This document shows, in pieces, positions 38,777 to 40,451 of a DNA stretch of 42,632 nucleotides; positions within the stretch are counted from its first letter, which is position 1; each line of letters starts with the position of its first letter. The stretch is from a virus. The stretch covers positions 1 to 42,632 of the IMG/VR virus record IMGVR_UViG_3300047388_000050, one strand, 5' to 3'. Below the pieces are notes generated by a model. It worked only from the letters and a program-made list of their open reading frames with translations, was not told the DNA's origin and did not search any database. Position numbers and translations under genes: made by a program.

Positions 38777-39007
38777 ATGAGCATCCAGCAAGTCGAGATC
38801 GTCAAACCAGATCTGACCACATCCGAAGCAATCTCTGAACTCATCGGCTCGCTGGCAGGCCTCGGACTCCGCATCTTCTTCATCTGGCTAGCGGTATCCG
38901 AATGGTTCCCGCAGCTCGGCCTAACGTACTGGCAGCTTGTTCTGCCGGTCTACGCGGTACGCATGCTGATCCTCCCCGAGCCGCACTTCAAGCGCCTCCG
39001 CAAATAG
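38777..39007 (+). CDS. Small membrane protein
   Basis: A 76-residue protein with an N-terminal soluble segment (1-22) and two hydrophobic helices at about 24-44 (GSLAGLGLRIFFIWLAVSEWF) and 48-66 (LTYWQLVLPVYAVRMLIL), then a basic end (HFKRLRK). AAGGA lies eight bases upstream. Could be an early membrane protein acting in exclusion or host takeover; no family known. Confidence 0.7.
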   Translation: MSIQQVEIVKPDLTTSEAISELIGSLAGLGLRIFFIWLAVSEWFPQLGLTYWQLVLPVYAVRMLILPEPHFKRLRK

Positions 39008-39429
39008 CCCTAACAAACTTGTCCTCGCTGGTGAAGCGTGGTGACGTACCCCATAGGGTTTCCACCAACGTCAAGCCCGTTAGCTGCTCATCTGATGGGC
39101 TGCCAGCGAGGGCAATCCTTACCCCAGTCACTTAGGTGGCTGGCCGCAGTGCTCCCCGTATGCCTCTGACATTGGGCGTTCCTCGGGGAGTGCTTGCACG
39201 GGTCCGTAACTGATGAGCGGACCCAACATCCGCCCTCCCCGCGCTTATCTAATACGATCGCGGGGCTCGGGCAGGGCTGAGAAAGTTTCACATCCACGGG
39301 ATGTGACCGGGGGCAGTACCCGGCAGCCCACTGACGGTGACAGCCCCCGAAGACAACGCGCCCTGAGCGCCCACAGCGGGCAGAGCCAGTAACCGTCCAA
39401 AACCAAACCCACTGAGCAAGGGGAAGAGC
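39008..39429 (+). other. Structured non-coding region of 422 bases
   Basis: No convincing gene on either strand. It holds a series of stems: CCTCGCTGG/CCAGCGAGG (39023-39031 with 39103-39111), CTCCCCG/CGGGGAG (39152-39158 with 39184-39190), GGGTCCG/CGGACCC (39200-39206 with 39218-39224), CCCCGCG/CGCGGGG (39237-39243 with 39259-39265), TCACATCC/GGATGTGA (39288-39295 with 39299-39306) and CGGGGGC/GCCCCCG (39308-39314 with 39343-39349). It may be one or more small RNAs, a long regulated leader, or an origin. Confidence 0.55.
39023..39111 (+). ncRNA. Candidate three-way-junction RNA
   Basis: A nine-pair closing stem, CCTCGCTGG with CCAGCGAGG, encloses two smaller hairpins: TGACGT (39042-39047) with ACGTCA (39068-39073), itself holding ACCC/GGGT, and AGCCC (39074-39078) with GGGCT (39097-39101). 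No known RNA family recognised and no T-run follows. Confidence 0.4.
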
Positions 39430-39663
39430 ATGAACCGTCGAGAGTACGACACCAGGGGCTGCGCGTTCACACGCATAGCCACCGACCCGGCATTGGACGC
39501 TGACGACCATCACGCCATCGACAAGCTGCTCAGCTCGGCACAAGGCCACCACGCCATCGCCATAGCCTTGCAGGATGCTGGCGTGAACGTGTCCACGAAG
39601 ACTGTTGAGCGTCACCGCCGCAACATCTGCACCTGCGAAAAGAGCCCCGCATGGGTGCTATAG
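39430..39663 (+). CDS. Small HTH-like protein
   Basis: A 77-residue protein: ATDPALDADDHHAIDKLLSSAQGHHAIA, IALQDAGVNVSTKTVERHRRNIC. The helix pair around HHAIAIALQDAGVNVSTKTVERH is a resolvase-type helix-turn-helix typical of small actinophage regulators, and it ends in CTC. It follows the structured region and overlaps the exonuclease gene by 13 bases. AAGGGGAAG lies shortly before the ATG. Confidence 0.7.
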   Translation: MNRREYDTRGCAFTRIATDPALDADDHHAIDKLLSSAQGHHAIAIALQDAGVNVSTKTVERHRRNICTCEKSPAWVL

Positions 39664-40451
39664 CGAAGAAGCTTTCACCGAGGATCGCCCCGAAGGCGCG
39701 TGAGTCGGTTCGTATCCTGACATTGGATATTGAGAACGCCCCGAACCTCGCGCACGTCTGGTCGTTGTTCAACCAGAACGTGTCCCTCGCGCAGTTGCAG
39801 GAAACCGCGACAGTCATCAGCGTGGCCGCGAAATGGTACGGCGACAAGGATGTCCTGTTCTACAGCGACCATCACGACGGCCACGCAGCCATGATCACCG
39901 CGATCCACGCGCTCGTCTCAGAGGCCGATCTCATCGTGGGTTACAACTCCGCTGGTTTCGACATGAAGCACCTCAACCGTGAATTCATCCTCGCTGGCCT
40001 CAACCCACCAGCACCGTACAAGAACGTTGACCTGCTCCTGACTGTCCGGAAACAGTTCAAGTTCGCGTCAGGCAAGCTCGACCATGTTACTCAGCAACTC
40101 GGGCTAGGCAAAAAGGCGAGCCATGAGGGTCACGAACTGTGGGTCAAATGCATGGCCGGTGACAACGCTGCGTGGGACCGGATGCGCAAATACAACATCC
40201 AAGACGTAGTACTCACCGAAAAACTCTACGACCGGTTGCGTGCCTGGATCCCGAACCACCCGCACCTATCCATGTTCACCGGCAACGAATGGGGTTGCCC
40301 CGTCTGCGGCAACTCCGACCTATCCAAATACCGGGCTGGCACATCACGCGCCAACGTCCAGCAATACCGCATGTACCAATGCCCATGCGGCCACTGGGTA
40401 CGCGGCACCAAGAAACTCCAAGACGCCACACAAACCAGATCAGCCCGCTAA
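39651..40451 (+). CDS. DnaQ-like 3'-5' exonuclease (DEDD) with zinc ribbon
   Basis: A 266-residue protein of the RNase H-like exonuclease superfamily. Motif I is ILTLDIENAP (D26, E28), motif II is LIVGYNSAGFDMKHLNREF, and motif III is YNIQDVVLTEKLYDRL (Tyr and Asp). This is the PolB-type proofreading domain in stand-alone form. The C-terminal 50 residues (WGCPVCGNSDLSKYR, YQCPCGHWVR) form a zinc ribbon. It could process DNA ends, edit replication errors, or degrade host DNA. ATG 39651. Confidence 0.85.
   Translation: MGAIAKKLSPRIAPKARESVRILTLDIENAPNLAHVWSLFNQNVSLAQLQETATVISVAAKWYGDKDVLFYSDHHDGHAAMITAIHALVSEADLIVGYNSAGFDMKHLNREFILAGLNPPAPYKNVDLLLTVRKQFKFASGKLDHVTQQLGLGKKASHEGHELWVKCMAGDNAAWDRMRKYNIQDVVLTEKLYDRLRAWIPNHPHLSMFTGNEWGCPVCGNSDLSKYRAGTSRANVQQYRMYQCPCGHWVRGTKKLQDATQTRSAR

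Follow-up and report, generated by a model that had tools for sequence, protein, structure and literature searches.

Why should a phage keep 422 bases of densely folded sequence in front of two early genes? In the virus contig that we analysed (the window, 42,632 bases), this stretch occupies positions 39008-39429 and is bounded exactly by the stop codon of the ORF at 38777-39007 and the ATG of the ORF at 39430-39663. The original prediction offered three readings, namely a new phage small RNA cluster, a riboswitch-like leader of the HTH/exonuclease genes, or a replication origin. The two genes that follow are:

39430-39663, plus strand: small gene directly behind the leader, 77 aa, with a weak HTH/GerE-like match below the Pfam cut-off
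39651-40451, plus strand: DnaQ-like / RNase H-fold 3'-5' exonuclease, 266 aa

Because the best named-phage matches of the DnaQ-like gene are to Arthrobacter phages (54-57% identity), the host is likely to be Arthrobacter-type. The gap had also been described as unusually long. In a rough check, the longest plus-strand stretch outside all plus-strand ORFs of 50 codons or more was 165 nt, but the region itself was absent from the computed gap list because mechanical ORFs, such as that at 38902-39135, overlap it.

The plus strand of the region folded at -196.9 kcal/mol, compared to a mean of -160.2 kcal/mol for 100 shuffled sequences, none of which was as good (z = -6.28); the minus strand gave a z-score of -1.60, with 3/100 shuffles as good. 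Single modules, which were picked after the fold had been seen, gave z-scores of -5.90 (39019-39115), -4.90 (39274-39331), -4.40 (39199-39224), -4.14 (39144-39198), -3.22 (39230-39272), -3.10 (39122-39143) and -2.06 (39332-39398), and the last hairpin, which carries the SD (39405-39429), was weak alone (z = -1.07). With the conserved pairing in relatives described below, these values bear out the predicted dense structure; unconserved pairing and shuffle-like energy, which had been named as grounds for rejecting it, were both looked for, and the observation withstood these checks. Rfam 15 gave no family at the gathering cut-off over the window, where the original prediction had recognised none either, and the four matches to 38950-39480 were at chance level (E 0.62-5.7; best 17.1 bits against a cut-off of 44.2 bits). 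No promoter was seen when the region was inspected for one. The cumulative GC skew peaks near 16 kb, is near zero at about 32-38 kb and then falls gently; a replication origin is unsupported, since the skew does not turn at 39 kb and what is conserved is RNA base pairing on one strand. The folded RNA elements in this gap form a real and conserved string before two early phage genes.

The first of these elements, module A, has the following parts:

39019-39115, plus strand: module A, three-way-junction RNA of about 97 nt, supported by covariation in 16 homologues; model R1 scores 92.6 bits in the window
39019-39031 with 39103-39115, plus strand: P1
39036-39071, plus strand: P2, with internal loop ACGU/UUC
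39074-39101, plus strand: P3
39084-39091, plus strand: P3 apical loop CUGCUCAU, the proposed kissing loop, which reads CUGCUCA(U), CCGCUCAU or CUGCUU across 25/25 loci

A three-way junction had been predicted at 39023-39111; it is real, and its closing stem reaches out to 39019-39115. Relatives of the locus were gathered through relatives of the DnaQ-like protein and later of an Mre11-like nuclease. Sixteen distinct module A sequences were aligned from sequence alone, and the structure of the window was then counted on the alignment. Paired cells made up 80.3%, compared to 67.2% after shuffling, and changes on both sides of a pair were found in 80 cells (35.4 shuffled) and 23 pairs (16.2 shuffled). 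The covariation score was 0.373, compared to 0.168 for shuffled alignments and at most 0.164 for structures slid by 1-3 columns, over which the actual structure is favoured because it was taken from the window itself. Both sides changed in 10 of the 11 pairs of the outer closing stem; helix 3 (P2a) aligned badly and was only 46.8% paired. The internal loop (GAYGY/UUCC) and the joining bases are conserved. Searched in 72 sources, R1 gave 21 strong matches (59-94 bits) with 17 distinct sequences, one of which (L247) lay outside the seed. The array begins with module A in 18 loci and with a reduced form, A', in 7 others; A' scores 17-22 bits with R1, and the A' of L002 was missed by the model and read by eye. 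Module A is thus well supported as a new covarying RNA family without an Rfam match.

Other searches gave candidates that were discarded. A strict A pattern found seven loci in genome contigs, none of which reached E 1 with R1. A loose A pattern found 112 stretches in viral contigs, 80 of which were listed; when 81 sources (74 newly listed loci and the 7 genome loci) were checked with R1, the best score was only 17.7 bits, and all were therefore dropped as chance. The A' pattern gave at least 120 stretches, with 80 listed, and over all collected loci it gave 127 matches, among which the long closing stem was present in only 4 distinct and already known ones. When 395 genomes of the family that includes the L213 genome (Tersicoccus) were searched with R1 under strict filters, the single match, in a bacterial genome (L298), was weak (26.6 bits), had many broken pairs and was rejected. 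R1 found nothing in the gaps of the phages Amigo, Footloose, Buldak, REQ2, Kumotta, Trustiboi, Elesar and Acinetobacter NL, and the DnaQ query found no relative in genome contigs. By DNA similarity, neither the window region nor the array of L009 matched a named phage, and the L096 array matched tRNA-Trp genes in two of three records, the third being unannotated.

The P3 apical loop reads CUGCUCA(U), CCGCUCAU or CUGCUU in all 25 loci, and its closing stems differ between loci (loops and stems were read by eye and typed in). At the far end of the region lies its putative partner:

39408-39423, plus strand: SD hairpin CCC-ACUGAGCAA-GGG(G), with loop UGAGCA at 39413-39418 and SD GGGG at 39420-39423

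In the relatives, likewise, the SD of the next gene forms the 3' arm of a small hairpin, with UGAGCA or a variant in its loop. The stems of these hairpins vary on both sides (CCC/GGG, CCGU/ACGG, CCUU/AAGG), and each is weak alone, the best rank against 300 mononucleotide shuffles being 0.067 (L223) and that of the window 0.093. We compared each P3 loop with the 40 bases that precede the start codon of the following gene, counting contiguous Watson-Crick bases and excluding the duplicate contigs L003, L005, L086, L216 and L220 and other repeats of a contig already included. Complementarity reached at least 6 nt in 22/24 loci, or 23/25 including L296; only 5 nt were reached in L238 and L081. The leader of L088 carries UGAGCA, as expected beforehand, and counting it likewise gives 23/25 (18 A, 7 A'). 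Conserved complementary loops, one of which holds or flanks the SD, thus occur in 23/25 loci, which does not equal 23 events since many of the loci are related. In comparison, of 4639 windows of 40 nt taken from these loci, 189 reached at least 6 nt, as did 3 of 134 SD-like leaders of their other ORFs. The loop lies 144-965 nt from the start codon.

In some relatives, the module A loop appears to change together with the loop on the SD side. CUGCUU occurs with the leader AAGCAG in 4/4 loci, all related, and CCGCUCAU goes with the leader UGAGCG in L221 and L096 (CGCUCAU/AUGAGCG, 2 loci). When the loops of all 25 loci were permuted among the leaders, none of 100,000 permutations was as good; on the 11 distinct loop/leader combinations p was 0.011, rising to 0.12 without the CUGCUU class, so that the signal leans on one class, whose four loci may be one event. 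Among 15 loci without module A, tested against all loops, 4 reached at least 6 nt (L013 with 7; L229, L230 and L233 with 6) and 11 did not. L013 carries UGAGCAG, and module A is absent from its 27.8-kb record; its array start adjoins the 3' end of a tRNA (L013:3385-3420) and may be an attachment site.

On these sequence comparisons, loop-loop kissing between module A and the SD hairpin is moderately supported, and the pattern suggests a lock on translation. The P3 loop of module A would kiss the loop of the SD hairpin 144-965 nt downstream and steady that otherwise weak hairpin; the kiss would hide the SD and lower translation of the HTH/exonuclease (or Mre11-like) genes until it is broken. 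We infer this repression, as well as its possible release when RNase P/Z cuts out the tRNAs or tRNA-like elements between the two loops, when hairpin F competes for the module A loop, or when a protein binds module A. That the region is both a structured 5' leader of the HTH/exonuclease genes and an array in which small RNAs and tRNA-like elements serve as cassettes, with the kissing lock as its proposed function, has in our estimate a probability of about 50%.

Between the two ends, the window carries a chain of separate RNA modules, which fits the predicted small RNA cluster:

39124-39143, plus strand: hairpin E, CCAGUCAC-UUAG-GUGGCUGG, from the fold, with a counterpart seen by eye in L092
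39146-39197, plus strand: long hairpin E2, beginning GCAGUGCUCCCCG, from the fold, with a counterpart seen by eye in L092
39200-39224, plus strand: hairpin F, from the fold, with GAUGAGC complementary by eye to GCUCAUC of module A
39232-39272, plus strand: module B, hairpin GCCC-UCCCCGCG...CGCGGGG-GGGC
39274-39330, plus strand: module T, tRNA-like without a D arm, from the fold, not called by ARAGORN or Rfam
39332-39398, plus strand: module I, with closing stem GACGGU/ACCGUC and AGUA ahead of its 3' strand

The complementarity of hairpin F makes it a possible second pairing partner of the module A loop. This hairpin is inverted between close relatives (L096:325-365 and L217:2551-2580), with loop GCUCAUGUUC in one and GAACAUGAGC in the other. 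Module B lies directly 5' of a tRNA-like element in the window, L001, L004 and L296. Module T has an acceptor stem (GGGCUG/CAGCCC), a long middle arm and, adjoining the acceptor stem, a T-like 5-bp arm (CCGGG-7 nt-CCCGG) with the 7-nt loop GGCAGUA. A true tRNA was defined by a cloverleaf with D arm, anticodon arm and a T arm with UUCRANY loop; for module T, ARAGORN called 0 genes, Rfam gave no tRNA match up to E 10, and there is no D arm. Module I recurs behind tRNAs or tRNA-like elements in relatives and in Arthrobacter phage Kumotta.

The gaps of the relatives cannot be aligned over their full length: they are hypervariable chains of modules, containing A or A', hairpins, a likely pseudoknot (module C), tRNAs, tRNA-like elements, module I and the last small hairpin, of which the two ends persist. 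Such persistence of two distant short motifs, while everything between them changes, is what would follow if the ends were tied by kissing loops. The tRNA genes in the arrays are Trp in L004/L005, and Ala with one uncertain tRNA in L006. Over 62 bases, positions 39270-39331 share 98.4% identity with L081, and the match stops where the tRNA-like element does; the L081 array differs around these bases, and the flanks have no match until the gene, making this a direct case of cassette exchange. Where a small ORF intervenes (L001, L095), the SD hairpin travels with the array and not with the nuclease gene.

Several further elements were seen in these gaps. Module C, found at L009:3570-3650 and in L006, L010, L013 and L296, resembles an H-type pseudoknot (GGUGA[GCCAU]CACC, a hairpin around AGACGU, then AA[AUGGC]); L097 and L098, taken up as carriers of the C pattern, looked like chance matches and were dropped. 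At L010:3316-3783 and L081:2106-2570, ORFs that by eye resemble HNH endonucleases separate the array from the gene that follows; that of L010 directly precedes the SD hairpin, which is intact. Module D (L002:3490-3672, with CUAAGAACGAGGCGACGCUACGCGCCUA in its closing stem) is unannotated and probably structured, and is also found in the Arthrobacter phages Trustiboi, DevitoJr, Teacup, Kumotta and Elesar and Rhodococcus phage REQ2, with a shorter 5' part (83.6%) in Acinetobacter phages NL and SR and weaker matches (E 0.2-7) in Serratia, Erwinia and Microbacterium phages; it had no Rfam match up to E 10. Microbacterium phage Footloose (L300:1280-1870) has a gap of about 560 nt with one annotated tRNA-Leu and a similar layout, in which module A was not found. 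The gaps of REQ2 (L302:1700-2430) and Kumotta (L303:17300-17880) hold tRNA-like elements with canonical T arms and acceptor ends and odd bodies, and one of those in REQ2 is called a tRNA by Rfam.

The main rival to the kissing lock is that module A is excised from the array as a free small RNA and that its loop acts in trans, on a protein or on mRNAs of host or phage that begin AUGAGC; its own leader would then be one target among several, or the match to it a side effect. The loops CUGCUCAU and CCGCUCAU are indeed antisense to AUGAGC, with which several genes begin, module A sits among tRNAs that need cutting, and hairpin F gives a further match. The loop also matches the region of its own start codon by 6-8 nt in 9/25 loci, so that the start codon could be the target there; in the other 16, including the window with only 4 nt, there is no such match, whereas the leader match is far commoner (23/25) and the CUGCUU class follows its leader. 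We regard action in trans as possible, though improbable. Alternatively, the array might be an island of tRNAs and stable RNAs for decoding or counter-defence, replacing tRNAs or serving as decoys for nucleases, with its position in a leader incidental. True tRNAs at the same place in L004/L005 and L006, tRNA-like elements in many other loci and the position of the Footloose tRNA-Leu before gene 64 and MRE11 would agree with this. The tRNA-like element of the window, lacking a D arm and not called as a tRNA, fits it poorly, as does the retention of module A in the short arrays of L247 and L218, where little separates it from the gene, and we find an island with no role in the leader doubtful.

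Two further explanations read the conserved motifs without loop pairing, or with a ligand, and both seem very improbable to us. UGAGCA/UAAGCA could be the conserved stop codon of an SD-coupled leader peptide, given that UGA and UAA are both stops and that the CUGCUU class reads UAAGCAG; but the length of the open frame ahead of the stop varies from 2 codons (L010) to 135 (L217), 9 of the 17 motif-bearing leaders that were examined have no start codon in this frame, and the CUGCUU/AAGCAG and CGCUCAU/AUGAGCG matches would be left unexplained. Module A could also be the aptamer of a ligand-binding riboswitch with the SD hairpin as its expression platform, as its three-way junction, its conserved internal loop and joining bases and its position for gene control might indicate. 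We found no Rfam match and no metabolite theme in the downstream genes, which are nucleases, and the conserved apical loop is in keeping with a role in pairing and is better explained by a loop-loop lock. The original prediction is therefore partly supported: the leader of the HTH/exonuclease genes fits, as the first module shows complementarity to the hairpin that holds the ribosome-binding site of the HTH gene, and the riboswitch in the sense of a ligand aptamer found no evidence.

Long-range loop-loop pairing controls expression in plasmid repZ leaders of the ColIb-P9 type. As in repZ, two distant hairpin loops of one mRNA are proposed here to pair and to decide access to the ribosome-binding site, but the RNA is unrelated, has a three-way junction and carries replaceable tRNA/RNA cassettes between the loops. 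The packaging RNA of phi29 is likewise a three-way junction (about 100 nt or more) with loop-loop contacts, in which two mutually complementary loops form a ring; in module A only one loop is conserved and it matches the mRNA leader, whereas the P2 loop is variable and shows no complementarity to that of P3 (alignment A1, by eye). The T4 tRNA cluster holds the small stable RNAs C and D, which have no known function and, while also lying amid phage tRNAs, no known relation in sequence or structure to these modules. The accessible parts of one report describe GOLLD and ROOL as structured phage RNAs, often near tRNA islands and without known function, that form nanocages, many GOLLD exceeding 800 nt (PMC12286853). 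Compared with the very large RNAs outlined there, the modules here are about 100 nt and lack Rfam matches; the GOLLD and ROOL covariance models of Rfam gave no match. In the portions available of another, non-coding RNAs of the mycobacteriophages D29, L5 and StarStuff, without known function, were found by RNA-seq at the right end of the genome and in an intergenic region (PMC5712189). These too are non-coding RNAs of actinobacterial phages, and those portions describe no covariation model or tRNA-like array (PMC5712189). We found no published description of the locus in a search covering largely non-subscription literature.

Module A adds a structured RNA family without an Rfam match to phages that are probably Arthrobacter-type, and unannotated gaps of actinophages hold several further conserved RNA modules. 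The two-loop prediction is precise enough for single and compensatory mutants in a reporter. Host tRNA-processing enzymes might, by excising the cassettes, separate the lock from its target and so time translation of the nuclease genes, leaving phages to swap cassettes freely as long as both ends keep matching; we consider this joint reading rather unlikely. If it were true, it would be a new kind of phage gene control, a kissing lock with RNA cassettes between its partners. If the lock is real, phage tRNA cassettes, whose purpose is debated, would be linked to the timing of a nuclease operon.
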